Shown here one piece after another: positions 1,625 to 31,011 of a stretch of 64,000 bases of DNA. The translations under genes were made by a program, and so were the position numbers. A model generated the notes under the pieces. That model searched no databases. It was given only the letters and a program-made list of their open reading frames with translations, and was not told the origin of the DNA. Source of the DNA: Fimbriimonadaceae bacterium (lineage in GTDB: Bacteria; Armatimonadota; Fimbriimonadia; Fimbriimonadales; Fimbriimonadaceae); NCBI GenBank assembly GCA_019454125.1, contig CP075365.1:614218-678217 (forward strand), read 5' to 3'. Numbering within the stretch: position 1 is the first letter of the stretch; every line of letters begins with the position of its first letter.

Positions 1625-2490
1625 TGAGGAAGTCAAAGCAAGCCAAAATCAGCGTGGCCGGGACCGAAATCTCGGTGGTCAGCGACGCCCGGGGCGACTA
1701 CATCTCGCTGACCGACATGACCCGCGGTTTCGACGGCGGCCCCGCCCTGATCGAGCAGTGGATGCGGGCCAAGGACACGATTCTGTTCCTGGGAGCCTGG
1801 GAGAGCTTGCACAACCCCATTTTTAAACCCCACGAATTCGGGGGGTTTAGGAATGAGGCTGGCCGAAACAGCTTCTATATGTCACCCAAGAAGTGGGTCG
1901 AGGCAACCGGAGCCATCGGGATCTACTCCCAATCGGGTCGCTATGGAGGCGGGACTTTCGCACACCGCGACATCGCCTTTGAGTTCGGAACTTGGCTGAG
2001 CCCAGAATTCAAGCTTTACCTGATCAAGGAGTTTCAGCGGCTCAAAGAGGCGGAAGCCGAACGGCAGAGCCTGGAATGGAACCTCAACCGCTCGCTTTCA
2101 AAGCTGAACTACCGAATCCATACCGACGCAATCAAGGAGCACCTGATTCCGCCGAACTTGACCAAGCGGCAGGAAAGCTTCGTCTATGCGGACGAGGCTG
2201 ATCTGCTGAACGTGGCTCTCTTTGGCAAAACGGCCAAGCAGTGGCGCGACGCAAACCCGGAGCTCGAAGGAAACATGCGGGATTACGCGACGGCGGCTCA
2301 GCTTCTCGTCATGGTGAACCTGGAGTCGCTGAATGCTCAGTGGGTGCGAGACGGCTTGAAGCAACCCGAGCGATTGCGACGACTGCGCGAAGCAGCAGTT
2401 TCACAACTCAAATCTCTCGGCTCCATCAGCCTGCGGTCGATTGACCTACCGCCAAGCCTCCCGATGAGGGACGAGGAGGAGGAAGAGTGA
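1624..2490 (+). CDS. KilA-N domain DNA-binding protein between mod and res
   Basis: About 288 residues. The N-terminal ~140 residues match a KilA-N domain: a short beta segment (ISVAGTEISVV), DYISLTDM, a long insert ending in YMSPKKWVEATGAIG, then GRYGGGTFAHRDIAFEFGTWLSPEFKLYL, of which the AHRDIAFEFGTWLSP part is the family hallmark. The rest is helical and charged and ends in an acidic tail (MRDEEEEE). KilA-N domains bind DNA and are frequent in phages and large DNA viruses. GTG at 1621 is in frame but ATG at 1624, overlapping the mod stop, is the natural start. The 3' end overlaps res by 4 bp (GTGA). Sitting inside a type III operon, it may be an accessory DNA-binding or regulatory subunit; that role is inferred. 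Confidence 0.85.
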   Translation: MRKSKQAKISVAGTEISVVSDARGDYISLTDMTRGFDGGPALIEQWMRAKDTILFLGAWESLHNPIFKPHEFGGFRNEAGRNSFYMSPKKWVEATGAIGIYSQSGRYGGGTFAHRDIAFEFGTWLSPEFKLYLIKEFQRLKEAEAERQSLEWNLNRSLSKLNYRIHTDAIKEHLIPPNLTKRQESFVYADEADLLNVALFGKTAKQWRDANPELEGNMRDYATAAQLLVMVNLESLNAQWVRDGLKQPERLRRLREAAVSQLKSLGSISLRSIDLPPSLPMRDEEEEE

Positions 2491-5967: not shown

Positions 5968-8900
5968 ATGTCTCGACAAGAAGGATTATTCACGGAACAC
6001 CTGCCCAAAATTAAAATCCCCGTCGCCACGCGTGTAGAGGCACATTTTGGGAAGAACAGACTTTTCCAGCTCCTGTTCGAAGGCTACGAGGGGAGTGCAG
6101 AGTCCATCACCGCCGCAAGTGGTACAGAGTCGTGGACGGAGCTAAAGCTACCAACCGGGGATCTATTCCGGGTCTACGAGAGCGGCGCACGATCGACGTT
6201 CACGCATCCCCACCTTCGCGTGGCGGGCTCAAAGCTGAAATGGGAAAATGCCAAGCTTCCCGCCCTCTCGCCGTCATGTCGACAGAATGCGTTGGACTCA
6301 TGGAAGGACGCTTTTAGGTTTTTCCGAGAAGACCCAGGAACCGGCCAACCAGGTTTGCGGCCACCTCAGATAGGAGCTCTTCACGCGATCCACGCTCACT
6401 GGACTGTCGAAGACAAGCCAGCGACAATCGTCATGCCAACCGGAACTGGCAAGACAGAGACCATGTTGGCCACGCTAGTTTCGGAGCGGTGTGATCGTGT
6501 CTTAGTGATCGTTCCCAGTGTCGTTCTGCGTGACCAACTCTTTGGGAAATTTGCAACCCTCGGATTACTGAAAAAGCTAACAAACCTGGCCCAGAGCGCT
6601 CAGTTCCCGGTCGTGGGGCTCATGCGATCGAGTCTCCAAACTGCTACTGCGGTTGACGAACTGTTCGGTTCGGCGAACGTGATCGTGGCTGTCATCAATT
6701 CAGTTGTGGCGAGCAGCCCTGAGGCATTAGCCCGAATTGTTGAAATCTGCAGCCACTTGTTCATTGACGAGGCTCACCATGTCCCGGCCCGAACGTGGTC
6801 ACAGCTCAAGGCTCAGTTTCAGCACAAGCACGTGCTTCAATTTACTGCCACTCCATACCGAAATGACGGAAAGCGAGTGGATGGCAAGGTTATCTACTCT
6901 TTCCCGCTGCGGAAAGCGCAGGAGCAGGGCTACTTCAAGCCGATCCAATACAAGCCGATCTACCAATTTCGCCCGGAACTGTCCGATGAGGCAATCGCCG
7001 AAGCTGCGATCAAGCAGCTCAGGGAAGACCTCAATGTTGGACTCGACCACGTGCTTATGGCCCGTGCTCATCCCATCGAACGGTTGAAGCAAATTCTTCC
7101 GATCTACTCCGCAAAGGCCGCGGACCTCAATCCAGTGATCATCCATTCTCAGATGTCGCAGACCGACCGTAAGCTCGCGTTGGACTCTATGAAGACAGGC
7201 CAGTCTCGTGTGATTCTCTGCGACAACATGCTCGGGGAAGGGTTCGATTACGCACAGTTGAAAGTTGCAGCCCTTCACGATCTACACAAGAGCCTCGCAA
7301 TCACACTCCAGTTCACTGGCCGCTTTACCCGGACGAGTTTAGACGCAAAGCTGGGCCCTGCTACCATGATTGCCAATGCCGCCCTATCTGGAATAGGCAA
7401 CGAGCTAAGGGACTTGTACGCCCAGGACGCCGACTGGAACCGCCTGATTCAGGAAATGGCCGACCAGACGATAGGGTCCAAGGTGAAGAAGACTGAGTTT
7501 TCAGCCACCTTCAAGCCATACGGCGTCGACTTTCCGCCTGAGAACATCCAGCCAAAGATGAGCACCGTCGTTTATCAGACGAAGTGCGAGGAGTGGGCTC
7601 CGAAGACCCTGGAAAAGTGGCTTGAGAGGGCCCAAGTGTTTGCAGGTCCATCGATCAGCGATGAACACCGAACCGCCTTCTACGTTGTCGTGGAAGCGTC
7701 GGAAGTTGAGTGGGGTCTGGCAAAGGATGCGCTTGATGTCCACTACGCACTCTTCTTGCTGCATTGGGATAAGGAGCGTCAATTGCTTTTCATTAATAGC
7801 ACAGACAACAGGGGCTTTCAAAAGGACCTAGCGATGTTGGTCTGCGGCGAGGATGTCGAGAGGGTCCAGGGCGAGGAGATATATCGTGCAGTCTACGGAA
7901 TCAACCGTCTCGTCCTCTTCAACCTCGGGCTAAAGCATGTAACCGGACGCAACGTCCGATTCACCATGCTGGCAGGCTCTGATGTTCTTGAGGGGATCAC
8001 GATAGCCCAGGCCGGGACGCGCACGAAAACAAACCTGTTCGCACACGGCTACGAGGACGGGGAGCGAGCAACAATGGGCTGTTCGATTCGTGGGCGCCTC
8101 TGGTCGTACTTAGTGGCTGACGACATTTCTCACTGGGTCGCGTGGTGTAAGCATATCGGCAATAAACTCCTAGACGATACGATCACCATCGCAAAGATCA
8201 ACGATTGGTTCGTAGTTCCCCAGGAACTTTCCGATCGTCCGCGTTTGACTGCTCTTTCTGCAGACTGGCACGATCAGTTCTTCATTGAACTTGAGAGAAG
8301 GACCTTTATTAAGATTGGGAACGTAGAGTGTCCCGTCTTTGATGCCGACATTGAGATCGTGCCGACTGAAGTGACTGGTCCTTTGAAGTTCGCGGTCAAT
8401 GCAAACGGCAAGCGCGCCGTGTTCAAGATCAAGTTCCAGAACAAGGAGATCAAGTTCGATCAGTTGGAGGGCGACACGGCCATGCTGAGAATTGGCTCGG
8501 CCACTTCAAAGCTCAGCGATGAGTTTGAAAACTATCCGCCGATCATCTACTTCGAAGCCGAAGCCGTCCTGGAAGGCGGACTGCTCGTTCAGCCGAAGAA
8601 AGGTAGCCGCTCTTCGTTTGATCGAACCAAAATCGTCGCCTGGGATTGGAAGGGCACTGACCTAAAGAAGGAGTCCCAAGGAACTGCCCGAGCAGCAGAT
8701 TCAATCCAGTATAGGGCGATTCAGGAATTCCTATCCGACAACTCCTGGGAAGTAATCTTTGATGACGACGGGCCACAAGAAGTTGCCGATATTGTTTGCC
8801 TCAAGCGGCAGGACGACGTCTTGAAAGTGAGCTTGATTCACTGCAAATACTCTCATGGCGATCAGCCGGGGAGTCGAATCGACGATCTGTACGAGGTGTG

Positions 8901-9207
8901 CGGCCAGGCACAAAAGGCGATCAAGTGGAGGGATGAGATGGAGAAAATGATCTCCCGGTTACTTGCACGTGAAGACAAGTCGCTGGCTGACGCCAGGGCC
9001 TCGCGCCTGATTAAAGGGGACCGCAACAGGCTAATCGAACTCAGGAATTCAGCGCGACTGCTACGACCAGATTTCAGTATGTGGCTTGTACAGCCAGGTT
9101 TGTCAAAGGCCGCCGCTTCATCGAGTCAGCTTGAGTTGCTTGGAGGCACGGAGACATTTCTCCATGAGGTACATCAAATCCCACTGCACGTGGTTGCCAG
9201 CGCGTGA
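5968..9207 (+). CDS. Large SF2 (DEAD/DEAH) helicase with probable C-terminal PD-(D/E)xK nuclease
   Basis: A 1,079-residue protein. A specific N-terminal region (~130 residues) precedes an SF2 motor: Walker A MPTGTGKTE (~155-163), motif II FIDEAHH (~264-270), motif III QFTATPYR, and motif VI region LQFTGRFTRTS. About 450 residues with no motif I recognise follow. Near residues 937-961 the pattern EVADIVCLKR ... IHCKYS has the D-x(n)-E/H-x-K spacing of a restriction-endonuclease-like fold. The layout resembles single-protein helicase-nuclease defence effectors and type I R subunits, but no methyltransferase or specificity subunit is adjacent. It has its own upstream terminator, so it is probably an independent module. 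I cannot assign it to a named defence system. Confidence 0.85.
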   Translation: MSRQEGLFTEHLPKIKIPVATRVEAHFGKNRLFQLLFEGYEGSAESITAASGTESWTELKLPTGDLFRVYESGARSTFTHPHLRVAGSKLKWENAKLPALSPSCRQNALDSWKDAFRFFREDPGTGQPGLRPPQIGALHAIHAHWTVEDKPATIVMPTGTGKTETMLATLVSERCDRVLVIVPSVVLRDQLFGKFATLGLLKKLTNLAQSAQFPVVGLMRSSLQTATAVDELFGSANVIVAVINSVVASSPEALARIVEICSHLFIDEAHHVPARTWSQLKAQFQHKHVLQFTATPYRNDGKRVDGKVIYSFPLRKAQEQGYFKPIQYKPIYQFRPELSDEAIAEAAIKQLREDLNVGLDHVLMARAHPIERLKQILPIYSAKAADLNPVIIHSQMSQTDRKLALDSMKTGQSRVILCDNMLGEGFDYAQLKVAALHDLHKSLAITLQFTGRFTRTSLDAKLGPATMIANAALSGIGNELRDLYAQDADWNRLIQEMADQTIGSKVKKTEFSATFKPYGVDFPPENIQPKMSTVVYQTKCEEWAPKTLEKWLERAQVFAGPSISDEHRTAFYVVVEASEVEWGLAKDALDVHYALFLLHWDKERQLLFINSTDNRGFQKDLAMLVCGEDVERVQGEEIYRAVYGINRLVLFNLGLKHVTGRNVRFTMLAGSDVLEGITIAQAGTRTKTNLFAHGYEDGERATMGCSIRGRLWSYLVADDISHWVAWCKHIGNKLLDDTITIAKINDWFVVPQELSDRPRLTALSADWHDQFFIELERRTFIKIGNVECPVFDADIEIVPTEVTGPLKFAVNANGKRAVFKIKFQNKEIKFDQLEGDTAMLRIGSATSKLSDEFENYPPIIYFEAEAVLEGGLLVQPKKGSRSSFDRTKIVAWDWKGTDLKKESQGTARAADSIQYRAIQEFLSDNSWEVIFDDDGPQEVADIVCLKRQDDVLKVSLIHCKYSHGDQPGSRIDDLYEVCGQAQKAIKWRDEMEKMISRLLAREDKSLADARASRLIKGDRNRLIELRNSARLLRPDFSMWLVQPGLSKAAASSSQLELLGGTETFLHEVHQIPLHVVASA

Positions 9208-9306: not shown

Positions 9307-9356
9307 TTGCAATCGCACTGCAGAGGTCGTGAGTTCGAATCTCATCATCTCCACCA
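9307..9356 (+). pseudogene. 3' half of a tRNA-Ala(CGC) gene; probable attachment-site remnant
   Basis: The sequence folds as the 3' part of a tRNA. Anticodon stem TTGCA/TGCAG (9307-9311, 9319-9323) encloses the loop ATCGCAC with anticodon CGC (9314-9316). A 5-nt variable loop AGGTC follows, then T stem GTGAG/CTCAT with loop TTCGAAT (9334-9340), acceptor strand CATCTCC (9346-9352), discriminator A and an encoded CCA. No matching D arm or GGAGATG acceptor strand lies within normal distance upstream, so the 5' half is missing. Such 3' fragments mark att sites. The stop codon of the adjacent serine recombinase lies inside it (9345-9347). Confidence 0.72.
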
Positions 9357-10898
9357 ATCTACAGATTTCTCGTTTTCCGGGCCAGCCCCGGCCCCCTCTC
9401 TTGCCACGTTTAGCATCAAATCGAACGGCATATTGAGGTCTGCGACCACCTTTTCGCCGTCGAATTTGCAGTTCGAGAGCATTGCAGAGACGATTTGGCG
9501 TTTTTCGTCCGGACCGGCTGTTTTGAACCTAAGATGGGCGGTCTTGGCGAGTTCTAGAATCTCAACTGCCTCGTCGTAGGAACTCGATTCTTGACCGGAC
9601 AGGGACGCCATCGTTACCTCGATTTCCCGTATCTCACTAACGAGGGCCTGCTTCTTTTCTTTGTGTTCTTCACGGCTAAGAACGCCGTCGGCGTAGTCGT
9701 CGTAAAGGCGCTCTCGCCTGGATTTCGCTCGTCTTAGCTGGCCCTCCAGTGCCGACATCCGGGCGGCATCGACGGTGCGCTCCTCCTCGTATTGGGCCCG
9801 CACGTCCTTACAGAGTTCTTCGAGAATGAAGTCAGGGAGGACGAGTCCCTCCAAGAGTGAGACGAAGAAATCGTCAAAAACCTCTTCGCGGACGAATGGG
9901 CGCGCGCACTCGTGCATGCCCGTGCAGTGATAGTAGGTGTATTTGCCCTTCTTGACCTCCCCCGACATTTGGTGACCACAGGCGCAGCGCAGCATTCCTC
10001 GATAAGCAAGGTTCTTGGCTCCGTAACGGACGCGACTCGTGCCACGACCCGACATCACATCCTGAATGGTTTGCCATGTAGCTTCGGAAATCAGGGGCTC
10101 ATGAACTCCGTCGTGGTCAACACCGTTCCAGCGGATTATCCCGCAGTATGCTGGATTGCGAAGAATGTCCTCCATGCCGCTCTTATGGACGCGTTTGCCC
10201 TTCTTCGTCCTCAATCCAAGCTCTTCCGCTCGCACCGCTAAGGTCTTGATCGAGTGCGCGCCGCTTGCATATTCGAGCATCAACTGCCGCACGATCGGGC
10301 CGCGCACCGGATCGATGGCAATCATCTTGCGCTTGGTTCCCGGCTCGGGTACGTTCAAGTATCCGAGCGGAGCATGTGTGGGATAGATGCCCTGCTGAAC
10401 CTTTTCGTCTAGTCCCTTTCGAATTTCTTCCGAAAGGTTGTCTGAATAGTGTTCGGACATCAAGACCTTGAAATTTTGAACTAGTCGTTCGTGGGCCCTG
10501 GCGTCAGGCAACCACCACCGGTTTTCTCGTAGAAAATATGCCGAGACACCCATAGCCTCCAAGGCCAATGCATCCTTCCGGTTTCTGATAAGCCGGTCAG
10601 TCTTTTCGGTGATGATACATGCTCCAGGAAACTCAGCGAGCACTCTCAACATTCGTGCAAATGCTGGCCTGCCTTCTCGCTTGGCAGAGTGGCTCTCAAC
10701 GAAATCGTCAAGGATCCTGTACCCATTTCGCTCAGCCCATTGCCTTGCCTCACGCAGTTGGGAATCAAGGCTCCAGCCCTCGTCTTCCTGCTCCTTCGTC
10801 GACACGCGCCGATAGAGCACGCACTCCTTAAGGTCGGGGCCAGATGGTGTTAAGACTTGTCGTCCAGCAGATAGTTTTGATTTGAGGTTGCTTTGCAT
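9345..10898 (-). CDS. Large serine recombinase (integrase)
   Basis: A 517-residue site-specific recombinase. The N-terminal resolvase catalytic domain starts with LYRRVSTKEQ (catalytic Ser near residue 33) and continues with the helix around EKTDRLIRNRKDA. A Recombinase domain follows (GYLNVPEPGTKR to the NPAYCGIIRWNG segment), then a zinc ribbon (CACGHQMSG ... YYHC ... CARPF) and a long coiled coil (residues ~370-460) typical of integrases that control direction. The 3' end runs into the tRNA-Ala fragment, the usual placement of an integrase beside its att site. It probably integrated or excises the neighbouring island DNA. Large serine integrases use tRNA genes less often than tyrosine integrases do, which makes the arrangement notable. 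Confidence 0.93.
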   Translation of the reverse strand: MQSNLKSKLSAGRQVLTPSGPDLKECVLYRRVSTKEQEDEGWSLDSQLREARQWAERNGYRILDDFVESHSAKREGRPAFARMLRVLAEFPGACIITEKTDRLIRNRKDALALEAMGVSAYFLRENRWWLPDARAHERLVQNFKVLMSEHYSDNLSEEIRKGLDEKVQQGIYPTHAPLGYLNVPEPGTKRKMIAIDPVRGPIVRQLMLEYASGAHSIKTLAVRAEELGLRTKKGKRVHKSGMEDILRNPAYCGIIRWNGVDHDGVHEPLISEATWQTIQDVMSGRGTSRVRYGAKNLAYRGMLRCACGHQMSGEVKKGKYTYYHCTGMHECARPFVREEVFDDFFVSLLEGLVLPDFILEELCKDVRAQYEEERTVDAARMSALEGQLRRAKSRRERLYDDYADGVLSREEHKEKKQALVSEIREIEVTMASLSGQESSSYDEAVEILELAKTAHLRFKTAGPDEKRQIVSAMLSNCKFDGEKVVADLNMPFDLMLNVAREGAGAGPENEKSVDWWR

Positions 10899-13705: not shown

Positions 13706-15529
13706 TTGGAAGAACACACCCCAGAAGCACCGAAGCTGATGTTCACGGACCTGCACGTCACGGCAGACGACTTGCGCGTAGTCCCGTGGCTTGACACGAT
13801 CGAGCAAGACAAGCGAGACGAGGTTGACAACTATTCAACCCCGCTCTTCGCCGCCGCCAGAGTCGCCGCTGAAGCTGGAGACAGACGCGCAGAGCAAGTC
13901 TACGTGCTGCTTGGATCGGCGTCGTCGATGTTCTATGACTCAAACGACGCAGCCGAGCCGCTGAAGCCCATGTTTGTCATGGCGAACTCGCGATCTGCCG
14001 CGCTGAGTGATTTCGAGGATCAACACCTTGACCCAATCGCGGCCGTGTACGCCGAAATCGCCGACCGAGAAATGAAAGCAAGGTTGGCCGACATCCTTTG
14101 GATTCGGCGAAAGGATCACCAAGCAGCGCGGGTCGCGGCCGCCGCATATCTGGAGGGTGCCAAGGCGTTGATGGACCCCGCTGAGTGGGTGCACGGATTT
14201 CACCGATTGCAGCGAGCCATGCAGATCGCCGGAGCGCTGGGTAAGCAGAGCGCAGAACGCAATGCGGTCGCGGACTATGCTCTCGAACTCCTCGCCAAGT
14301 TGGACGGGAGCGATCCTCTGTACTTGACCAGATCAATCATCGACCTCGCCCTTGCATACAAGATTGGTGATCCCGCATTGCTGGCGGGTTACGCGGAAAA
14401 GTCCGCAGAGGGCGCTGAAGGTCGCCAAGACTGGATAACCGCTGCCGACTATTGGGCCCTCGTCGCAACGTGTAGAAGGAAGGCGGGGAACGAAGCGGGC
14501 GCTACCGAGGCTTCGCTTCGTCAGGGAGAAGCTCAAATTTCAGTCGGAGAGACGATGGCTGGGAAGCCAGGACTCGCTGCTGAGCATTGGTTTGAACAGG
14601 GTTTGCTCACGCTGAGGCAGGCAGGTGCTCCCAAGGAACGGCAAGAGGAACTCATGAAGCGCCTTCACGAGCTTCAGAAGGAGCGATTGGAGCACCTGGG
14701 CAAGATCGAAACCAGCGTCCCGATAGATCCACAACTGATCGAGCACATCGAGAAGGTCAAGGGTATGAGTCTCCGAGATGCCCTGGCATTCTGGGCAATT
14801 CAGGTCCGACCAATCGGCAAGGAACGCCTACGTGAGATGGTCCGAGAGCACGTCACCCAGAGTCCTCTTTCGAGCATCTTCTCGAACTCCATCTTGCGCG
14901 AAGACGGCAAGGTCGCCTTCGTGATCCCCGCAATGCCGCTGAATGAGGAGCCAAGCGACGAGTTGCTCCAACTACACATGTGGCGGATGGCGGAGATGAC
15001 CAGACCGGTGACCGCGTGGATGGCCGAGCAGATCCGACACATGATTGCTGGCGAGCACCCGTGGGAGGAAGGTTGTCTGGACTGGCTATTGAACGACAAT
15101 CTCTTCGTCCCGAAGGGACGTGAACCGATTTTCGCGCGCGGCCTTCAATCGGGAATTGAAGGCGATTACCTCATTGCGACGCACCTGCTCGTACCGCAGT
15201 TGGAGAACTCATTCCGGCACGTGCTGAACCAACACGGCGTTCTCACCACCTTCTTGCGCCAAGATGGGACGCAGGACGAGTTCCCGATCAACAAGATCGT
15301 GGAGACTGAGGCATTCAGCCAGATCTTCGGACAAGACCTCGCCTTTGAGTTGAGAGGCTTGCTGGCCGAGCATGCTGGGGCGAACCTTCGGAACAACGTC
15401 TCACATGGGCTTGTTTCGGCGGGAAGTTTCTACAGCCCGAGCAACATCATCCTAGTCCCGCTGACCCTTTGGCTGCTGCTTCATGGAGTCGAGCGGGCGA
15501 GTGAGAATCAAATCGAGCACAACGACTAA
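13706..15529 (+). CDS. DUF4209 domain protein with HEPN-like C-terminus
   Basis: 607 residues. The N-terminal two thirds are helical and repeat-like, rich in Ala, with a TPR-like look. The C-terminal ~150 residues match DUF4209: ARGLQSGIEGDYLIATHLLVPQ, LENSFRHVL, then ANLRNNVSHGL. The last contains R-N-N-V-S-H, an Rx4H arrangement like the catalytic motif of HEPN ribonucleases. DUF4209 proteins occur in many defence islands; RNase activity is inferred. The start is TTG 13,706 with GGAG 8 nt upstream; no ATG is in frame nearby. The promoter carries an operator-like palindrome, suggesting tight repression. No cognate antitoxin is adjacent, apart from the divergent operon at 11.2-13.6 kb. Confidence 0.8.
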   Translation: MEEHTPEAPKLMFTDLHVTADDLRVVPWLDTIEQDKRDEVDNYSTPLFAAARVAAEAGDRRAEQVYVLLGSASSMFYDSNDAAEPLKPMFVMANSRSAALSDFEDQHLDPIAAVYAEIADREMKARLADILWIRRKDHQAARVAAAAYLEGAKALMDPAEWVHGFHRLQRAMQIAGALGKQSAERNAVADYALELLAKLDGSDPLYLTRSIIDLALAYKIGDPALLAGYAEKSAEGAEGRQDWITAADYWALVATCRRKAGNEAGATEASLRQGEAQISVGETMAGKPGLAAEHWFEQGLLTLRQAGAPKERQEELMKRLHELQKERLEHLGKIETSVPIDPQLIEHIEKVKGMSLRDALAFWAIQVRPIGKERLREMVREHVTQSPLSSIFSNSILREDGKVAFVIPAMPLNEEPSDELLQLHMWRMAEMTRPVTAWMAEQIRHMIAGEHPWEEGCLDWLLNDNLFVPKGREPIFARGLQSGIEGDYLIATHLLVPQLENSFRHVLNQHGVLTTFLRQDGTQDEFPINKIVETEAFSQIFGQDLAFELRGLLAEHAGANLRNNVSHGLVSAGSFYSPSNIILVPLTLWLLLHGVERASENQIEHND

Positions 15530-20033: not shown

Positions 20034-20707
20034 TAGAGGTCCACTCCCGTGATCGTTTTCAAGTGAGTTGAAACAAGCTTGTCGGTCTTCTTGACAAGCC
20101 TCTCGATGTGATTCATCATGCGCTTGGCCGCATCTTTTCGAACGGCACCCAAGTCCTTCTTCCCGTGGGCAAGGTCGCCTCGAAGTGAAATGTATTCGTC
20201 TAGCTTGGTCTGGGCGCTGGATGCGGTCATCTTTGACCAGAACCACTGGTCTTCGATCTTCTCAAGGCCCAGCGTATTACTGATCAACGAGGAGGCTTGA
20301 GCAGTCTTGGCGGTGTTGAATTCATTTCCCGTCTTTGGAAGGGTGTTGGCGACGCGCTTGGCATTATCTCGGAGAAGGTCGCCAAGGGATTTGGAAGCGA
20401 AGTCCCACAGTTTGGAGGCGTCACCTTTGATGATTCCTTGCGAGTGTTTCTCAATCTCGCCAATCAGGTACGCGGGCAGTTTCGTACGATCCGTGCAGTT
20501 GGTCGCAAGATGGTTTATTGACTCCTCCACCAGATCTTCGATGTACGCTTCCCAAATGGCTGCACAGAAAAGAATCGCAGACTTGTTCAAAATTTGGTGC
20601 TCAGGTGGTCGCCGTCCACGCTTCGCTCCGCTAAGTTTTGAATGGAACCCCAGCAAGTCCTCAACATCCTGCTTGTTCGCTTCGAACCGACTAAGGGACT
20701 GACTCAT
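20033..20707 (-). CDS. HEPN domain protein (MAE_28990/MAE_18760-like) inside the hsd operon
   Basis: 224 residues, all helical. LNKSAILFCAAIWEAYIEDL (residues 40-59) is the first conserved helix of the RiboL-PSP/MAE-type HEPN family. RGDLAHG (176-182) gives the catalytic Rx4H (R176, H181). Such proteins are predicted ribonucleases that act as toxins or abortive-infection effectors. It is inserted between hsdR and hsdM with a 4-bp overlap to hsdR and a 1-bp overlap to hsdM, so its dosage is tied to the restriction enzyme. It may kill or arrest the cell when restriction fails; that is inference. Confidence 0.85.
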   Translation of the reverse strand: MSQSLSRFEANKQDVEDLLGFHSKLSGAKRGRRPPEHQILNKSAILFCAAIWEAYIEDLVEESINHLATNCTDRTKLPAYLIGEIEKHSQGIIKGDASKLWDFASKSLGDLLRDNAKRVANTLPKTGNEFNTAKTAQASSLISNTLGLEKIEDQWFWSKMTASSAQTKLDEYISLRGDLAHGKKDLGAVRKDAAKRMMNHIERLVKKTDKLVSTHLKTITGVDL

Positions 20708-23017: not shown

Positions 23018-23046
23018 TTGACATATTCGCGGCCATCGTGTAAAGT
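23018..23046 (+). promoter_or_regulatory. Strong sigma-70 promoter of the XRE/ImmA pair
   Basis: -35 TTGACA (23018-23023), 17-nt spacer, -10 TAAAGT (23041-23046). The predicted transcription start (~23,053) is only about 6 nt before ATG 23,059, so the mRNA is nearly leaderless. A GTGCAGT half-site resembling the operators at 13.65 and 24.07 kb follows the -10 box (23,047-23,053), which fits autoregulation. Confidence 0.65.
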
Positions 23047-23058
23047 GTGCAGTTGACA

Positions 23059-23430
23059 ATGACGGAAGAAGTGGGTCCATCCAATCGCTACGGAGCCAAG
23101 CAGCGGGATCTCCGGGTTGCGAAGGGCCTGACGCTCCGGAAGTTCGCAGATGCCCTGGGCGTCAGTCCAACCTATGTGAGCGGGGTTGAGAACGGGACCT
23201 TGCCGCCACCAACGCCCGATCGACTCACCAAAATCGCGGAACTGCTCGAAACTTCGCTTGATGATCTAATTGGACTCGCCGGTCGATGGGATGACGTAGC
23301 CAAGCAAGCCGTGGAGGATCGACCCGAGTTCGTCAGGTTGTTCCGAGCGGCAAAGGACCTCTCCCGTGAACAGGTCGAACAGCTTTCTAAACTAGCTGAG
23401 GAGCTTTCTGAGGATGGCGACGGAGTTTGA
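23059..23430 (+). CDS. XRE-family transcriptional regulator
   Basis: About 123 residues. The helix-turn-helix spans residues ~10-65: RDLRVAKGLTLRKFADALG, then SPTYVSGVENGTLPPPTPD, then LTKIAELLETSLDDLIGLAG. The C-terminal helical tail (EQVEQLSKLAEELSED) probably mediates dimerisation. GTG 23,047 is in frame but abuts the -10 box, so ATG 23,059 is preferred. It overlaps an ImmA-type protease gene by 17 bp, the classical repressor-antirepressor protease pair of mobile elements (ImmR/ImmA in ICEBs1). It is divergent from hsdR and upstream of the herA operon, so it probably controls both. Confidence 0.9.
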   Translation: MTEEVGPSNRYGAKQRDLRVAKGLTLRKFADALGVSPTYVSGVENGTLPPPTPDRLTKIAELLETSLDDLIGLAGRWDDVAKQAVEDRPEFVRLFRAAKDLSREQVEQLSKLAEELSEDGDGV

Positions 23431-24019
23431 TCCTGTACCGGCATGCTTCTGCGGAGTGCAGTTTCTACCAGTTGCCCGACTAGAGCGCATCGTCCGGGAC
23501 AAGCTGGTGCGCTTCGAGCGCGAAACCGGAACCCGGCCCGCACTTCCTATCGACATCGAAGCCCTAGTCGAAATCATGGAGAAAATCGAGGTCGAATACT
23601 TCGATGACGACCATCCTGAGTTCGAACCCGATGTCCTTGGCGCGTACGACTTCTCACGGGACAAGATGTTTGTTCGCGAATCGATCGCGCACGAGGGTCG
23701 ACGTAGGTTTACGTGGGCCCATGAATACGGCCACTACATTCTCCACAAGCCCCATTTTTTGCAGGGAGTCTTCGACTTCTACACAGAGTCGTCAAAGGCA
23801 GTCGTTCAGTTGCACCGGGGCGCGGGGGGCACCCGCAACAAACTGGAGTGGCAGGCAAACATGTTTGCGAGCCACATTCTGATGCCGACCGCGCACGTAT
23901 CCCAACTGTTCCCAAGTGGGTGGACATCGATTGAGGAAGCAGCCAGGATGCTCTCCAGCGAAGCTAATGTCAGCCTCCAGTCGGCACGCATTCGCCTTGA
24001 GAACTTCAACAGAAAATGA
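23414..24019 (+). CDS. ImmA/IrrE-family metallopeptidase
   Basis: 201 residues. Zinc-binding HEYGH motif at 103-107 with the preceding FTWAHE context, and the third-ligand region EWQANMFASHILMP further on, the standard signature of the family. These proteases cleave a cognate XRE repressor after DNA damage or another signal and so switch on the repressed genes. The N-terminus contains CFCGV, which is unusual for the family and could bind metal or be chance. Translationally coupled to the XRE gene. Confidence 0.92.
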   Translation: MATEFDPVPACFCGVQFLPVARLERIVRDKLVRFERETGTRPALPIDIEALVEIMEKIEVEYFDDDHPEFEPDVLGAYDFSRDKMFVRESIAHEGRRRFTWAHEYGHYILHKPHFLQGVFDFYTESSKAVVQLHRGAGGTRNKLEWQANMFASHILMPTAHVSQLFPSGWTSIEEAARMLSSEANVSLQSARIRLENFNRK

Positions 24020-24031: not shown

Positions 24032-24059
24032 TTGACACGGCCGAAACGTCTGGTATAGT
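24032..24059 (+). promoter_or_regulatory. Promoter of the herA-nurA operon
   Basis: -35 TTGACA (24032-24037), 16-nt spacer, -10 TATAGT (24054-24059), starting 13 bp after the ImmA stop codon. Good matches to consensus. Confidence 0.65.
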
Positions 24060-24063
24060 TGTG

Positions 24064-24080
24064 CAGTGCGCACTGAACAC
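24064..24080. promoter_or_regulatory. Operator-like palindrome downstream of the herA -10 box
   Basis: CAGTGCGCACTG (24064-24075) is a perfect 12-bp palindrome immediately after the -10. The extended form CAGT-N3-CACT-N-AACAC (24064-24080) matches the site at 13653-13669 in all 13 defined positions with identical spacing. A bound repressor would block transcription start. Confidence 0.6.
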
Positions 24081-24196
24081 GTTACACTCAGAGAGGATAG
24101 ATCGTGTGAGGTTGATTGCGGCTCAATGGCAATAGCGATTCAGGTTCGGATCCAAGCCAGACCTGCCATAGTCTTAATCCCGAGGGCAGAAACCGT

Positions 24197-25942
24197 ATGA
24201 ATGAAGAGATTGGTCCAGGAATGCCTATCGAGGATCAGGCATCTAGCATCGCAGTCGGTAGAGTACTAGGAACAGAAGACTCTACTCCTCTGGAGTTCTG
24301 GGTCGCTGTTGAACCCGGACAGTTCCTTCAACTGGATGACGTGGTTGCCGTGACCCGCGAGGTTCCCGGCCGCGAATCGATAACTGTCTATGGTGTCGTG
24401 AACAATGTCCGTGCACGTCACGAAGGTGCTCGCTTTGACAGCGATGTGTTTCTCATATCGCAAGGATTGTTGCCGGCTGAAATTTGTGAAGCCGCGCAAA
24501 TACTCGTGACCCGCTGTGAGCCCGAGGTCTTCCTGCCGCCGCGACCTGGGCAGGAGGTGCGCAAAACGCAAGGAGCCGAGAGAGCTTCCGCGCTGTACTT
24601 TGACGACATGCTGGGGCAAGTTCCGGTGGGCCTCACGCGAGAAAACGAGCCTGTTTATGCGAGTTTGGAGTTCATCGACGGGACTAAGGGAGCCCACATC
24701 AACATCAGTGGCATGTCGGGAGTCGCAACCAAGACAAGTTACGCTCTTTTCCTGCTATACAGCCTTTTCGAATCCGGTGTACTCGGTGCCGAGGTAACGA
24801 ACTCCAAAGCTCTCATCTTCAACGTAAAGGGAGAGGACCTCCTTTTTCTGGATAAGCCCAATTCCGCCTTGTCGGACTCTGACCGAGCAAGATATGCGGC
24901 GCTTGGGCTTGCTCCCGGGCCGTTTGAGAGCGTTGCATTCTGGGCACCTCCTCGCCGAGACGATCAGAATGGCGTTCCCGACGTCAATAGTCGAACGGAC
25001 GGAGCAGTTCGGTCGTTCTTTTGGACACTGCATGAGTTCTGTCGTGACGGTCTCATGGAGTTCTTGTTCGCTGACGTCGATGATGACCGCCAGCAATATA
25101 CGATCGTTGCACAAAACGTCATTGCCCAACTGCGCCGGGCAGAGGCTGCAGAGCAAGGAGCCATCCGTATTCGCGAAGACAACACCAGCCGCACTCTAAC
25201 AACATTCGACGATCTCGTGGAGTATGTTACGGTTCAGGTTGAGGGCGCAAATCAACAATGGACGGGATCATCGATCACAACCGGCACAATCAATGCATTC
25301 ATACGGAGATTGCAAAGCGCTCGACAGCATCTTGGCCATCTCATCCGGGCGGATCTGGTCAATGCCGATCAGCATCGAATTGAGCTTGAGCGAAGAGTCA
25401 CCGTCGTCGATATCCACAGTCTCAATGATCGAGCCCAGCGATTCGTGGTCGGCGTCTTGCTGCGGAAGACGATGCGCGATAAGGAAGCTCAGGGGCGATC
25501 GAGGCCGCTTTGGTTTGTCGTCCTCGACGAGCTAAACAAGTATGCCCCGCGCGAGGGGGGCAGCCCTATCAAAGAGGCTTTGATCGACATCGCGGAACGA
25601 GGTCGATCCCTAGGAATGATTCTCATCGGAGCCCAGCAGACGGCAAGCGAGGTTGAGCGCCGCATTACCGGCATGTCTGCAATACGCGTTGTCGGGCGTT
25701 TGGATAGCGCTGAAGCAACTCGTTCTGAATACGGATACTTGAAAGGAGCGCTCCAGGCTCGTGCCGTGATTCTTAAGCCCGGCACGATGATCGTATCGCA
25801 ACCGTTGGTGCCAGTGCCTCTCTCTGTCGAGTTTCCTTTTCCATCTTGGGCAACACGGTTTTCAGAAGTCGATATGAACGCAAGCGGACTCAGCAACCTG
25901 TCCCCCGACGAAGATCCCTTTGCTAGAATGGGCGGTAATTGA
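24197..25942 (+). CDS. herA: HerA-like hexameric ATPase/translocase
   Basis: About 581 residues. The N-terminal beta-rich HAS-barrel-like region (AVGRVLGTEDSTPLEFWV ... GVVNNVRARHEG) is followed by a RecA/FtsK-type motor. The P-loop GMSGVATKTS (172-181) deviates from GxxxxGKT, as I recall for this HerA branch; Walker B is FVVLDELNKYAP (~437-448), then GRSLGMILIGAQQ. The family pumps DNA together with NurA nuclease during end resection. The frame is open to TTG 24,116, but ATG 24,197 begins the natural N-terminus. The 80-nt leader holds a possible 9-codon peptide from GTG 24,106. First gene of the five-gene operon. Confidence 0.88.
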   Translation: MNEEIGPGMPIEDQASSIAVGRVLGTEDSTPLEFWVAVEPGQFLQLDDVVAVTREVPGRESITVYGVVNNVRARHEGARFDSDVFLISQGLLPAEICEAAQILVTRCEPEVFLPPRPGQEVRKTQGAERASALYFDDMLGQVPVGLTRENEPVYASLEFIDGTKGAHINISGMSGVATKTSYALFLLYSLFESGVLGAEVTNSKALIFNVKGEDLLFLDKPNSALSDSDRARYAALGLAPGPFESVAFWAPPRRDDQNGVPDVNSRTDGAVRSFFWTLHEFCRDGLMEFLFADVDDDRQQYTIVAQNVIAQLRRAEAAEQGAIRIREDNTSRTLTTFDDLVEYVTVQVEGANQQWTGSSITTGTINAFIRRLQSARQHLGHLIRADLVNADQHRIELERRVTVVDIHSLNDRAQRFVVGVLLRKTMRDKEAQGRSRPLWFVVLDELNKYAPREGGSPIKEALIDIAERGRSLGMILIGAQQTASEVERRITGMSAIRVVGRLDSAEATRSEYGYLKGALQARAVILKPGTMIVSQPLVPVPLSVEFPFPSWATRFSEVDMNASGLSNLSPDEDPFARMGGN

Positions 25943-25968
25943 TGGGAGAAGTTCAAGGAGAATCTCCA

Positions 25969-26601
25969 ATGTGCCCCCTAATTCGGGGTGGTTGTGTGAA
26001 GAAGCAGTGCATGATGTGGCGCGAAGATGATTGCATCATTGCACTTTGGCTCCAGTTTGGCGTGCGGGCCCCTACCACCGAGAACTCTGAGTATCTAGAC
26101 GTCGCCGAGCATTTAGCAACTAGGGTCAGCCGCTGGGAGGATGATGACGAGGATCAAGAGTGCCTGCCGAAGTGGTTCCTTGAGACTCAACCAAGCGATT
26201 TAGCATCGGAAGCCATAAGCTTTGCTTTATCCAGTGAAGCAGGCGCTCCCGTCAGCCGGCTAAATCCGTTTATGGTTCTGCAAAGCTACTTCACGTCAAA
26301 GGGCGTCGAACACGTACACGATTACAGCTTGCCGTCCAACCAACGCAGTCAGTTTCGCAAAGTGCAGGAGTCCATCGCTCAACAACTCCCTGTTGCGGTG
26401 GAGCAGGAGACCGCAAGGCGTCGGGATGCACTGGAAGGCTACGTGGCCGAGATCGTCGAAGTTGCTCAACGACGTGGGCTAAAGCGTTTGACTCAATCTG
26501 ATGTCGACGCGTTCTTCGATGCTCGTGGGGAGCGATACGACTGGGAGTACAAGAGGCAGATTTGGTCCAGCGCAAATGCCAAGTTGAAGGGGTTTATGTA
26601 A
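25969..26601 (+). CDS. Four-cysteine-motif protein of the herA-nurA operon, function unknown
   Basis: About 210 residues. The start is ATG 25,969, with AGGAG 8 nt upstream; ATG 25,942, overlapping the herA stop, is an alternative. The N-terminus reads CPLIRGGCVKKQC...C, that is C2-x6-C9-x4-C14-x7-C22, a compact cluster likely to hold zinc or an iron-sulfur centre. The rest is charged and helical, ending in TQSDVDAFFDARGERYDWEY, which looks like a winged-helix or coiled segment. Immediately followed by sbcD (stop and start adjacent). I do not recognise the full-length family. Its fixed place between HerA and Mre11 suggests an adaptor or sensor subunit of the complex. Confidence 0.75.
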   Translation: MCPLIRGGCVKKQCMMWREDDCIIALWLQFGVRAPTTENSEYLDVAEHLATRVSRWEDDDEDQECLPKWFLETQPSDLASEAISFALSSEAGAPVSRLNPFMVLQSYFTSKGVEHVHDYSLPSNQRSQFRKVQESIAQQLPVAVEQETARRRDALEGYVAEIVEVAQRRGLKRLTQSDVDAFFDARGERYDWEYKRQIWSSANAKLKGFM

Positions 26602-27756
26602 ATGAAGATTCTACATACTGCAGACTGGCACGTTGGGCGCACACTCCGGAACCGCTCACGCGCTACCGAGCACCGTGAGGTCCTGAAGGAAATCGGAGCC
26701 ATTGCGCTCGGAGAGGCGGTTGATCTGGTTATCGTCGCCGGTGACCTCTTTGACTCAGTATCTCCCACTGCGGAGTCGGAGGACATTGTGTACGAAGCTC
26801 TGCTGGACCTCGCGGCGACAGGCGCTCAAGTGGTTGTGATCTCGGGAAACCACGACCACCCTCACCGACTGAGCGCCATCGCACCCCTGCTCAGAAGGGT
26901 GAATGTCACTGCCGGCGCTCTCCTCGCGCGCCCCGAGAGCGGGGGAGTCATCTCCGTCCAATCGAAGTCTGGCGAGAAGGTTGCCATCGCCCTTATCCCG
27001 TTCCTCTCGCAAAAAGGTGCGGTTAAAGCTGACGCAATCATGTCTGTAGAACCCGCTCAGAACGTCCTTACCTACCAGGAGATTTGCGGCAACATCGTGC
27101 GACGACTCTGTGAGGGTCTTGAGGAGGGATGCGTCCAACTCGCAGTAGCTCACCTCGCCGTCCAGGGTGGCAAGGTGGGAGGCGGCGAGCGCGCGGCCCA
27201 CTCGATCTTCGAGTACTACGTGCCAGCCATGATCTTCCCGGCAACGCTGCACTACGTGGCTCTAGGGCACCTGCACGCCCCGCAGAAAATCGCGGCTGGC
27301 TGCCCCATGTGGTACTCCGGCTCGCCGCTTCAGCTTGATTTCGGAGACGCGGAGGTCACGAACTCTGTGCTCCTGGTCGAAGCCCAGGCAGGTACTCCGG
27401 CTGAGGTGAGGCCGATTCCCCTCAAGAGTGGGCGTAGGCTGCGTCAACTCAAGGGCACGCTAAACGAGCTTAAACTTCAGCAGGGAAATGTCGGGGACGA
27501 CTACCTGAAGCTCATCGTCAAGGAATCCCCGCGGGTTGGGTTGGCCGATGAGCTTCGGGAGTTGTTCCCCAATGTCGTGGATGTCGTCCTAGAGTACAGC
27601 ACCAGCATCAAAGTCGACGACAGGAGCGACCACGAACAAATGACGCCAGCACAGTTGTTCCGCGCCTATCTGGTCGAGGAGAACGAGGAAGAAGATGCAG
27701 TAATCGCGGCTTTCGAGGGGATTTTGGAGGACAACTATGCGTCCCGTCAGACTTGA
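26602..27756 (+). CDS. sbcD: SbcD/Mre11-family exonuclease
   Basis: 384 residues. All phosphoesterase motifs are present in order: HTADWHVG, VIVAGDLFD, VVISGNHDHPHR, VAHLAV, and ALGHLHAPQ near residues 215-225. It is the Mn-dependent 3'-5' exonuclease and endonuclease that, with SbcC/Rad50, cleans or opens DNA ends and hairpins. The C-terminal capping region is normal. It overlaps sbcC by 20 bp. Its place between HerA-type and NurA-type genes links it to end resection instead of the usual chromosomal sbcDC role. Confidence 0.93.
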   Translation: MKILHTADWHVGRTLRNRSRATEHREVLKEIGAIALGEAVDLVIVAGDLFDSVSPTAESEDIVYEALLDLAATGAQVVVISGNHDHPHRLSAIAPLLRRVNVTAGALLARPESGGVISVQSKSGEKVAIALIPFLSQKGAVKADAIMSVEPAQNVLTYQEICGNIVRRLCEGLEEGCVQLAVAHLAVQGGKVGGGERAAHSIFEYYVPAMIFPATLHYVALGHLHAPQKIAAGCPMWYSGSPLQLDFGDAEVTNSVLLVEAQAGTPAEVRPIPLKSGRRLRQLKGTLNELKLQQGNVGDDYLKLIVKESPRVGLADELRELFPNVVDVVLEYSTSIKVDDRSDHEQMTPAQLFRAYLVEENEEEDAVIAAFEGILEDNYASRQT

Positions 27757-30097
27757 GATCGAAGGTTTTGCCTCTTTCAAAGAACGAACCGTAATCGACT
27801 TTGATGGGGTGGAGCTTTTTGCCCTTACTGGCCCGACGGGGGCGGGCAAATCTTCGATTCTTGACGCGATCGTGTTCAGCCTCTATGGTTCGGTGCCCCG
27901 CTACGACCGGAAGGCTGTGATGCCGGTGATCACGCAGGGCAAGCTCGAGGCAAAGGTTCGACTGGATTTCAGCGTTGGCGAGGAGCAGTTCTCTATTGCA
28001 CGTCGGGTGCGGCGAGCCGGAAACCCCACCTGCTCTTTCGAGAAAGAGGGACAGGCGATTGCCGCCGGGATACGAGATGTCCAGCCGGAGATTGAACGCG
28101 TGATCGGCCTCACCTTCGATCAGTTCACCAAATGCGTGCTGCTGCCTCAGGGAGCGTTTGCACGATTCCTACACGACTCAGGGGCAGAACGCAATGAGTT
28201 ATTGCGCAAGCTGATGAGCCTGGAGATCTACTCCCAGCTTCGGCACCGCGCCGTGAATCGGGCCAACTGCCTCAGGAGTGCTCTGCAACTCAAGCAGGGT
28301 GAACTCCAGGGAATCGGCGATTTCTCTAGTGCAGGCCTCAAGGCTGCTGAAGAAAGGTCGGCTGTTCTAACTGACCTGTTCGATCGAGTCGACCTTAGTT
28401 GGAAGAAGATCGAGGATCTGGAAAGGGAGCGGTTGCGAGCAAGGAGCGAAGCAACTGCTGCAGGCAAGGACTTGGAGTTGCTCGGAAAAGTCGCCATCCC
28501 TCCCGAAGTCACAGCTATCTCCGAAACCATTGCCAGAGCCCAAACAAACTTGGAAGTGGCAACGAAGAACGTCGCTGCCGCTCGTGAAACTGTTACAAAG
28601 AACCAAGAGATTAGGGACAGGCTCCCTCCCATCGATAGCCTGAAAACACAGATCGGTAGCTATGAAAAGCTGACGACCTCCGAAGCTGACCTAAAGAAGC
28701 TCGAGCGAGAGGTCAGTGCCGCAACTGAGGCCAGAGATGGTGCAGTGGCAAAGGAGAAAGCTGCCTCAGAACGCTTGGACGCGTGTAGGACGAAGTTCGA
28801 GCTAATCAAGACCTCTCATCAGGGATTTACAGTAGCAAAGCGCCTGAGCGTAGGTGATCCATGCCCTGTTTGCGGAGGGTCGTTCGAACGTTGCCCGACG
28901 GAAGAGCCTGAAGACTACAAAACCGCACAAGAAGAAGCCAAGGCTGCAGAAGAAGAGCATGGGAAGATCTTTAAAGCCGTTGTTGAAGCCGAATCACAGG
29001 TTAAAAGCAGGAGTGGTCTGCTGACACAGAAACAGGGGGAGGTCCGTGCACAGCTAGAGGAGATTAGTTCCTTGCCAGGAATTGCTGATTTAAAAGCGGC
29101 GCTTGCCGATGCGGAAAGAGCGCAGGAGGCCTGCGACGTGGCTCAACGGGCACTCGTCCAAGCCCTCGAGGACGAGGGAACGCGACGAGCAGAACTGGAA
29201 ACAGCCAGATCTGCAGCCACAATAGTAGCCAGCCAACTCACCGAAACAAAGCAGAGCTTGGTCCACCTCAATCCACCCAGCGACCTTCCGGACGATCCCG
29301 CCAAGGGATGGCAAAATCTGCACGATTGGGCGAAGACCACCACAGAACGCGTCGAAACAAGGGCCACGGACGCCCTAACTCTTGCCACAGAGTCGGAAAT
29401 GCAGCGAGAAGCCCTAGAGAAAGGGCTTTGCGAAGAAGCGGCGAAAGTGGGCGTTCTGCCCGACGACAGGAATATCCGGGATTGTTGCATGGAGGCGCTT
29501 TCCAGTGCCAAGCAGCATCTTACAAACTATGGTGCCAGCTTGGAGCGCGCCAAAGCGATCCGAAATGAAATCAAGGAACTAGAAGCCGACGAGCGGGTCT
29601 ACCGAAAACTCTCGGAGCATCTAAAGACAAACCGTTTCGAGACATGGCTGCTGAACCGATCGTTCCGCGAGCTATGCGATCTTGCTTCTGTCAAGCTCTG
29701 CGAGTTGTCTATGGGGCAGTACTCCCTTGGGGTCACCGACGCTAACGACTTCCAGATCATTGACCATGCGAACGCTGACGAGCGGCGCTCAGTCAAATCC
29801 CTCTCCGGAGGGGAGACATTCCTCGCCTCCCTGAGCCTTGCCCTTGCGCTGGCCGAAGGAGTTTCCTCCCGTTCGGCTACCGGAGCGCGCCTAGAGTCAC
29901 TCTTCCTCGACGAAGGCTTCGGCACACTCGACTCGGAAACACTCGAAACCGTGGCGGGAGCGGTGGAAGAGCTTGGATCCAAGGGTCGGATGATCGGAGT
30001 TGTTACCCACGTCCGTGACTTTGCCGAACGTCTTCCCGTCAGATTCGAAGTCCGAAAAGATACTGGCGGGTCGAAGGTAGAGCGGGTGCAGGTTTGA
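27737..30097 (+). CDS. sbcC: SbcC/Rad50-family SMC-like ATPase
   Basis: 786 residues, shorter than E. coli SbcC (~1,050). Walker A GPTGAGKSSILDAI lies near residues 33-46, the Q-loop region QFTKCVLLPQGAF near 130, and coiled coils flank the zinc hook CPVCGG (~375-380). The signature motif SLSGGETFLASLSLALALAE and Walker B LFLDEGFGTLD are in the C-terminal lobe. All elements needed for ATP-driven dimerisation and Zn-mediated tethering are present. The short coiled coils suggest a compact arm. Confidence 0.93.
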   Translation: MRPVRLEIEGFASFKERTVIDFDGVELFALTGPTGAGKSSILDAIVFSLYGSVPRYDRKAVMPVITQGKLEAKVRLDFSVGEEQFSIARRVRRAGNPTCSFEKEGQAIAAGIRDVQPEIERVIGLTFDQFTKCVLLPQGAFARFLHDSGAERNELLRKLMSLEIYSQLRHRAVNRANCLRSALQLKQGELQGIGDFSSAGLKAAEERSAVLTDLFDRVDLSWKKIEDLERERLRARSEATAAGKDLELLGKVAIPPEVTAISETIARAQTNLEVATKNVAAARETVTKNQEIRDRLPPIDSLKTQIGSYEKLTTSEADLKKLEREVSAATEARDGAVAKEKAASERLDACRTKFELIKTSHQGFTVAKRLSVGDPCPVCGGSFERCPTEEPEDYKTAQEEAKAAEEEHGKIFKAVVEAESQVKSRSGLLTQKQGEVRAQLEEISSLPGIADLKAALADAERAQEACDVAQRALVQALEDEGTRRAELETARSAATIVASQLTETKQSLVHLNPPSDLPDDPAKGWQNLHDWAKTTTERVETRATDALTLATESEMQREALEKGLCEEAAKVGVLPDDRNIRDCCMEALSSAKQHLTNYGASLERAKAIRNEIKELEADERVYRKLSEHLKTNRFETWLLNRSFRELCDLASVKLCELSMGQYSLGVTDANDFQIIDHANADERRSVKSLSGGETFLASLSLALALAEGVSSRSATGARLESLFLDEGFGTLDSETLETVAGAVEELGSKGRMIGVVTHVRDFAERLPVRFEVRKDTGGSKVERVQV

Positions 30098-31011
30098 GAT
30101 TCTCGGTCGAGCAGTGGCAGCCAGAGTTCGGATCTCCTATGGAGGCTATGAATGATGAAGCCTCCCCGCAGGCCATTGACCTGGACGTTGAAGTCTCATC
30201 CAGCGAGTGGCGACCCATTGCTGCGCGTCCAGAAGCTGCGATTTCACGGATCAAGTTCATCGACGGAGTTCGACGAATTGATGCCCGGGTGTGGATCGAG
30301 CGAGAAACCGACGTCCTTCTGGGTCTTTGTGCGTCGTGTGCCGCCGGCGTGGTCTGCTGTGATGGGGCGGCAGAGATTGAGCAGGCTATCGTAAAAAGGC
30401 TCCTCATTACTCCTTCACCTGAGGGTGCCCTCGTCACGAAGCACGCAAACTATGCCCCACGTGCAGCTTCGGACGATCGGCTCGATAGCCTATTGAACGG
30501 CCTTGCTGCCGGTCTTAGCGCACTGGAGGTCGAGGTGGCCGCAACTAGCGGATCATCGGATATGACCGTGATCGACGGACCCTTACGGGGGCGAGAGCAG
30601 ATACCAGGGGCCATTGGATACATCAAAAGCCACCGTGTCGGCTATCTTACGCCTGAGTTGAACTCGTTGCTTAGAAATCTTGGCGCGCGTGAACGCAGCC
30701 CTGTCTTTCTCGTTGAGACCAGTTGGACTCGCTATTCATGGTACATGAGGCTGGAAGAAGCTGTCGGTCATCCGTGGGCTGGAATTGTGCGCTGCGAAGC
30801 ACCCGCAACGAATTCACGCTATGAAGTCGTCGGTCTCGCTGACGCTGCCGTTGCTACATTTCCGCGATTCGCATCTGAGCCCCACAAGGATGGTCGGGCA
30901 CCGCAGAACCTATACCCCATCAAAGGTCTTGAGAATTGTCTTCGTAGTCGGCTTGGCAGTGCTGAACTTCTCTATCGCTCAATTGGGCTGGCATCGAGCC
31001 TGGTCCCTTGA
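30094..31011 (+). CDS. nurA: NurA-domain nuclease
   Basis: 305 residues from TTG 30,094, which overlaps the sbcC stop (TTGA); ATG 30,139 is an alternative, but residues before it (FSVEQWQPEFGSP) look native. NurA-type motifs in order: FIDGVRRIDARVW (~85, first catalytic Asp), VIDGPLRG (~165, second Asp), GYIKSHRVGYL (~180, Lys), RSPVFLVET, and the C-terminal APQNLYPIKGLENCLRSRLG. NurA is a 5'-3' exonuclease and ssDNA endonuclease driven by HerA in archaea. It closes the operon; the island-like sequence ends just after it. Confidence 0.8.
   Translation: MRFSVEQWQPEFGSPMEAMNDEASPQAIDLDVEVSSSEWRPIAARPEAAISRIKFIDGVRRIDARVWIERETDVLLGLCASCAAGVVCCDGAAEIEQAIVKRLLITPSPEGALVTKHANYAPRAASDDRLDSLLNGLAAGLSALEVEVAATSGSSDMTVIDGPLRGREQIPGAIGYIKSHRVGYLTPELNSLLRNLGARERSPVFLVETSWTRYSWYMRLEEAVGHPWAGIVRCEAPATNSRYEVVGLADAAVATFPRFASEPHKDGRAPQNLYPIKGLENCLRSRLGSAELLYRSIGLASSLVP

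Follow-up and report, generated by a model that had tools for sequence, protein, structure and literature searches.

A probably horizontally acquired HerA-SbcD-SbcC-NurA operon adjoins a CapH/CapP-type regulatory pair in a Fimbriimonadaceae bacterium

In a 64,000-nt window of contig CP075365.1 from a Fimbriimonadaceae bacterium (all positions refer to window numbering), five genes form one same-strand run behind a near-consensus promoter: herA, a gene for a protein with four N-terminal cysteines (hereafter the four-Cys gene), sbcD, sbcC and nurA. An XRE/ImmA pair adjoins the run, as does a Type I restriction-modification (RM) operon. We interpret it as a horizontally acquired DNA-end resection module that serves primarily in repair and is controlled by a switch responding to single-stranded DNA (ssDNA), a reading that we consider to have about an even chance of being correct. 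Repair-type end resection would thereby be linked to immune-style regulation; should the proposed switch operate, the ssDNA that the machine generates would also be its inducing signal, in a circuit that would sit where repair and immunity meet.

The resection-operon promoter, TTGACA-N16-TATAGT (24032-24059, + strand), agrees with the consensus at 11 of 12 positions and carries a TG before the -10 box. Downstream of it, herA extends from an ATG at 24197 to 25942 (+). This start is probably the correct one, rather than an upstream TTG at 24116, because conservation in relatives sets in just after the ATG. The leader of herA holds a nine-codon frame (24106-24135, +; GTG AGG TTG ATT GCG GCT CAA TGG CAA TAG), which may be a chance occurrence or a leader peptide. 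The four-Cys gene (ATG at 25969 to 26601, +) is preceded by the Shine-Dalgarno sequence aaGGAGaa and encodes 210 amino acids. It is followed by sbcD/mre11 (26602-27756, +), by a short sbcC/rad50 (27737-30097, +; 786 amino acids) that overlaps sbcD by 20 nt, and by nurA (TTG at 30094 to 31011, +), which overlaps sbcC by 4 nt. The original prediction, made from the DNA letters and their open reading frames, had placed five genes in one run under one promoter, and this arrangement was borne out.

The same prediction had named HerA, SbcD, SbcC and NurA, and all four assignments proved correct. In family-profile scans SbcD and SbcC were named clearly, HerA weakly and NurA not. HerA matched the hexameric double-stranded DNA translocase HerA of D. 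radiodurans (PDB 7f6d_B) over residues 12-559, nearly its full length, with an E-value of 2e-141, and the motifs GxSGVATKTS and LDELNKYAPR are invariant among its relatives. The product of the last gene gave no match to any Pfam, NCBIfam or PADLOC model, yet it matched D. radiodurans NurA (7f6d) by sequence with an E-value of about 3e-17 (2.7e-17). An AlphaFold model of it, built from 21 relatives (pLDDT 88.5), found as its best folds in Foldseek the same NurA (7f6d_G; 1.3e-17, TM 0.73) and T. maritima NurA (1zup; 5e-16), and residues D57, E145, D161 and K178 are invariant in relatives. As judged from sequence and predicted structure, the pair is thus a full-length D. radiodurans-type HerA and a NurA with a predicted RNase H-like nuclease fold and invariant acidic residues. 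SbcD scored 183 bits with TIGR00619 (curated cut-off 77.65) and matched a PDB SbcD entry at 8.6e-26. SbcC reached 270 bits with TIGR00618, which falls under the curated cut-off of 478.5; this cut-off is length-sensitive and was passed by 1 of 14 control genomes, though all 14 gave a match. The domain profiles AAA_23 and SbcC_Walker_B were passed, and the protein displays a Walker A motif, a CPVC zinc hook, an LSGGE signature and the Walker B motif LFLDEGFGTLD, with conservation at these motifs.

The likeness to D. radiodurans HerA-NurA (7f6d; PMC9960219) thus comprises a full-length HerA with the Walker A variant GxSGVATKTS and a NurA similar in sequence and fold. The Deinococcus genes form a two-gene nurA-herA operon, whereas the operon in the window has another gene order and adds SbcD, SbcC, the switch and the four-Cys protein. 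The archaeal herA-mre11-rad50-nurA cluster (Constantinesco 2004, as cited in PMC9960219) unites the same four functions; in contrast to it, the window operon has bacterial-type SbcD and SbcC (TIGR00619, TIGR00618), its HerA and NurA belong to the bacterial D. radiodurans/T. maritima type, and the regulation differs.

Among 84,980 species genomes scanned, the candidates included 498 HerA relatives, and we took the best 80 of these 498 (57-65% identity), many of which lie on fragmentary contigs of metagenome-assembled genomes (MAGs). They belong mostly to Actinomycetota, with others in Gemmatimonadota, Gammaproteobacteria, one Truepera and one Chloroflexota. The order HerA-SbcD-SbcC-NurA on one strand was found in 43 of the 50 relatives whose available sequence reaches 6 kb or more beyond herA, which argues that the four core genes form a real set, beyond chance. 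Chloroflexota copies are usually arranged as NurA-HerA-SbcD-SbcC (about 15 genomes), and in the class to which locus L048 belongs, HerA is present in 50 of 148 sampled genomes, about a third. The HerA-Mre11-Rad50-NurA set, best known from archaea, is therefore widespread in Actinomycetota, Gemmatimonadota and Chloroflexota and occurs in some Gammaproteobacteria. In the literature searched, older HerA-family surveys excepted, we found no description of the bacterial four-gene operon or of its coupling to a switch. The gap between herA and sbcD is at most 150 nt in 54 of 72 loci and exceeds 1 kb in 12, where 1-7 kb of genes are inserted (for example in L027, L034, L035, L036, L066, L094 and L097), some of them on the opposite strand; a conserved cargo slot was considered and rejected, the inserts being mutually unrelated and partly on the other strand.

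The genomic setting of these copies points to repair. Next to 53 chromosomal copies lie mostly metabolic or transport genes (ABC and EamA transporters, mannosylglycerate synthase, MFS proteins, aminotransferases, glycerol-3-phosphate dehydrogenase), and the PADLOC matches among 136 neighbours were few and largely to generic ABC/SMC (mad3) or SNF2-helicase models. No obvious defence enrichment near the core operon was seen in the 53 loci, a count made without matched control loci that does not measure depletion. A single SbcD above the curated cut-off was found in 44 of 47 carrier genomes tested, often incomplete MAGs, so that the operon appears to supply the sole full SbcCD of its genome; the Truepera genome (G312) has a second SbcD above the cut-off. 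Because the neighbours are mostly metabolic and the operon is usually the only full SbcCD, we classify it in most bacteria, on sequence grounds, as a repair-type chromosomal end-resection operon. The original prediction had favoured a dedicated defence system, a view that these neighbourhoods and the 44 genomes do not support. The mostly ordinary neighbours and the usually single full SbcCD come near to what it had itself named as speaking against it.

To the family of its host the operon is foreign. SbcD above the cut-off occurs in 1 of 61 genomes of the family, namely in the window genome, in which HerA, NurA, SbcC and SbcD are each single and the operon holds the only SbcC and full SbcD; plain housekeeping inheritance was rejected on this distribution. 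Starting in the left part of the window and up to about 31 kb, the GC content is 54-58%; past that point it is 60-70%. The low-GC stretch contains a Type III RM set, an SNF2-like helicase, a serine recombinase, PDC-S39 and a Type I RM operon with a HEPN gene, in agreement with the defence-island setting described in the original prediction. From this distribution and composition we infer that the operon was acquired horizontally, on the margin of an island of low GC that is rich in RM genes. In a HerA tree the window sequence is long-branched and joins a long-branch plasmid sequence. In an empty-site comparison the arg side aligned to relatives, but the left-flank gene is absent from most of them, so that neither island ends nor an empty site could be set. 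An SbcCD-less lineage might simply have picked up a repair operon as a replacement, with the island and the XRE/ImmA pair as incidental neighbours. The single SbcC and full SbcD of the genome and the family relatives lacking SbcD above the cut-off are what this explanation predicts, but we consider it improbable in view of the promoter sites and the recurrence of ImmA described below.

The pair upstream of the operon consists of an XRE/CapH-like repressor (23059-23430, +; alternative start GTG at 23047) and an ImmA/IrrE (Peptidase_M78) CapP-like protease (23414-24019, +). The repressor matched HTH_3 at 2.9e-16 and PADLOC capH at 3e-12 over the full profile, and its best PDB match was 7t5u (4.7e-8), which we take to be the HTH domain of CapH. 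The protease matched PF06114 at 1.3e-14 and PADLOC capP at 1.3e-23, retains an intact HEYGH motif and had CapP (7t5t; 2.6e-5) as its best PDB match. The XRE/ImmA switch named in the original prediction is accordingly, by sequence, a CapH/CapP-type pair of adjacent repressor and protease. Regulators of this type control BREX, CBASS, DISARM and Pycsar operons, and CapP is activated by ssDNA and cleaves its repressor (PMC13373217), as does PprI when activated by ssDNA (PMC10904395). With the CapH/CapP controllers (7t5u, 7t5t; PMC13373217) the window pair shares, as far as sequence likeness goes, the adjacency of an XRE repressor and an M78 protease upstream of the presumably controlled operon, which here is a DNA-end resection set and not a recognised immune system. 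PprI(IrrE)/DdrO of Deinococcus (PMC10904395) likewise combines an M78 protease with an XRE repressor, and ssDNA is the signal proposed here as well; compared with PprI the window protease is shorter and CapP-like by best match, and the switch appears local, with a site at two promoters and no evidence of a regulon.

Operator-like sites lie at both promoters. The switch promoter, TTGACA-N17-TAAAGT (23018-23046, +), matches the consensus at 10 of 12 positions and is taken as supportive only, the background of the promoter scan being about 2.5 promoter-like matches per region. Site 1, GTGCAGTTGACAATGA (23047-23062, +), begins 1 nt after the -10 box of this promoter. Site 2 (24060-24079, +), a 20-bp inverted repeat TGTGCAGTGC/GCACTGAACA, spans the expected transcription start of the resection operon. 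The pattern GTGCAGTNNNCANTG sits 1-2 nt past the -10 box at both the xre and the herA promoter and occurs twice in the 2.65-Mb genome, in site 1 (23047) and at 24061, within the inverted repeat of site 2, and nowhere else. Together with the spacing of 13 nt between the ImmA stop codon and the herA -35 box, the sites suggest a real wiring of the switch to herA, which speaks against incidental adjacency in a plain replacement.

The recurrence of ImmA at other copies of the operon argues in the same direction. An ImmA/IrrE gene adjoins the operon on plasmids of Streptomyces, Chlorohelix and Aulosira and on a chromosome-sized Chloroflexota contig (L151); it lies upstream in L018, L020, L021 and L151 and in none of 61 other loci from the best 80 HerA relatives with more than 3 kb of upstream sequence. 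Mobile copies thus tend to carry the protease gene. L020 (4925-9830), L021 (4717-9740) and L151 (4651-9628) have a common layout: a sigma-70-like factor, a further protein (35% identical between L020 and L021), ImmA, NurA, HerA, SbcD and SbcC. By its gene content this layout is a second damage-switch arrangement on the same machine. The plasmid copies, found in Streptomyces, two cyanobacteria and one Chloroflexota, could also indicate that the module helps its own carrier by repairing or processing island or plasmid ends after transfer, excision or restriction. The island holds a large serine recombinase, and ImmA/XRE-type pairs control some integrative and conjugative elements. Most copies are nevertheless chromosomal and in stable neighbourhoods, and island ends or an empty site could not be defined here; we regard such self-help as quite unlikely.

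Under the preferred reading of a switch-controlled repair module, the XRE/CapH-like repressor would at rest hold down its own and the herA promoter through the common predicted operator. Double-strand breaks, stalled forks, invading DNA or cuts by the adjacent Type I RM enzyme would produce ssDNA; by analogy with CapP/CapH and PprI/DdrO, the ImmA/CapP-like protease would then become active and cleave the repressor, and the operon would be expressed. From known SbcCD chemistry, SbcCD (Mre11-Rad50) would recognise and open blocked or protein-bound ends, and HerA would thread the duplex and drive NurA to digest the 5' strand, leaving a 3' tail, as expected from D. radiodurans HerA-NurA. The outcome would be RecA-ready ends, while foreign linear DNA without a repair partner would be lost. 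Since the resected ssDNA is the presumed protease signal, the circuit would amplify itself until the ends are gone. The chemistry is plausible for repair as well as for the degradation of invaders, given that D. radiodurans HerA-NurA digests the 5' strand during translocation (PMC9960219) and that SbcCD can attack phage-type hairpin ends (PMC12624138). Based on conservation and genomic context, the main job is most likely repair of host or island DNA, with destruction of invader ends as a by-product or second use. The operon possibly also degrades ends made by the neighbouring RM enzyme, and in view of the island and the immune-style switch it may act in defence as well.

The remaining gene of the operon was described in the original prediction as encoding a fixed Cys protein and dedicated sensor or adaptor. 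Its N-terminal pattern C-x6-C-x4-C-x7-C is exact (C2, C9, C14 and C22 of the 210-amino-acid form), and codon use is of the coding type in frame (0.105 per codon) but negative in each of the other five frames, so that the gene is probably real. A conserved adaptor was rejected: no relatives were found in the 80 operon loci, in 291 genomes of the phylum, on plasmids or in viral contigs. A single-sequence AlphaFold2 model is confident for residues 62-210 only (pLDDT about 90), where it predicts a helical C-terminal domain, and a fold search with this model matched no known fold. The four cysteines near the N-terminus suggest a metal or Fe-S site, and we regard the protein as a lineage-specific accessory, perhaps a redox- or metal-sensitive adaptor.

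Several points weigh against the interpretation as a switch-controlled repair module. The pattern GTGCAGTNNNCANTG was defined from the two sites themselves, and with 11 fixed bases about one chance match is expected genome-wide, so that the weight of the putative operator argument lies in the matching promoter position more than in the bare count. Five loci make up the ImmA association, of which L020, L021 and L151 are not independent, their common layout leaving perhaps three independent ImmA events; Fisher tests of the association (7e-6, or 1.5e-5 with a hand-made count) both ignore relatedness and the small plasmid sample. Finally, a defence system would just as well be expected to lie in an RM-rich island.

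This last point bears on the view of the operon as a dedicated anti-phage or anti-plasmid system, in which the switch senses infection ssDNA, the operon degrades invading ends or kills the cell, and the four-Cys protein acts as sensor or specificity factor. Besides the island setting, the known use of CapH/CapP-type regulators on the immune operons listed above (PMC13373217) fits such a role, and defence by HerA-nuclease pairs is known, for instance from DUF4297-HerA (PMC11291478). The Truepera copy (L061) lies directly downstream of an OLD-type AAA-TOPRIM nuclease gene (2821-4704). The Streptomyces plasmid copy adjoins, in addition to its ImmA gene, genes annotated TIGR02680, TIGR02678 and DUF2397, which we take to be Wadjet-like. 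On the other side, most bacteria keep the operon amid metabolic genes and as their sole SbcCD, no PADLOC family fits the whole set, and the four-Cys protein is conserved in no relative; we therefore think a dedicated defence system unlikely. The same holds for a related, doubtful idea, an infection-inducible amplifier of end degradation: ends from cuts by the divergently encoded Type I RM enzyme or from phage replication would yield ssDNA, the CapP-like protease would free the operon, and foreign ends would be chewed to more ssDNA that holds the switch on, with the Cys-protein adaptor tuning or targeting the process. If true, a repair machine would here be put to a self-amplifying use in immunity.

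Comparison with individual defence systems yielded partial likenesses. DUF4297-HerA (PMC11291478) similarly joins a HerA-family translocase to a nuclease, but the nuclease is another one and SbcCD is absent; the window HerA matches antiphage HerA profiles weakly. TdpAB is a defence system that combines a HerA-like translocase and a nuclease; it (8wfd) was the third-best fold family for the window NurA (Foldseek 9.5e-5, TM 0.40), and no TdpC-like partner was identified. With MADS, the window SbcC matches mad3 (4e-26) and HerA matches mad8 (7e-11). Membership in MADS was rejected: the full mad1-8 set is absent, and the matches are confined to related ATPase and Type I RM folds. The mad3 and mad8 matches are better explained by the proteins being SbcC and a D. 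radiodurans-type HerA.

The remainder of the low-GC island carries further genes of interest. The Type III RM set (20-5486, +) consists of a Mod methylase, a KilA-N protein and Res with an endonuclease domain. The ResIII/Helicase_C protein that follows (5968-9207, +) is 92% identical to one in G008, a genome of another genus, and absent from the same-genus genome G001, which implies recent transfer of this gene. Next come the large serine recombinase (9345-10898, -) and a DUF7380/DUF4209 protein (13706-15529, +) that matches PDC-S39, a candidate defence family, at 1e-143. The Type I RM operon includes a RiboL-PSP-HEPN gene (20036-20707, -) between its hsdM and hsdR genes, an arrangement that resembles RM-guarding anticodon nucleases.

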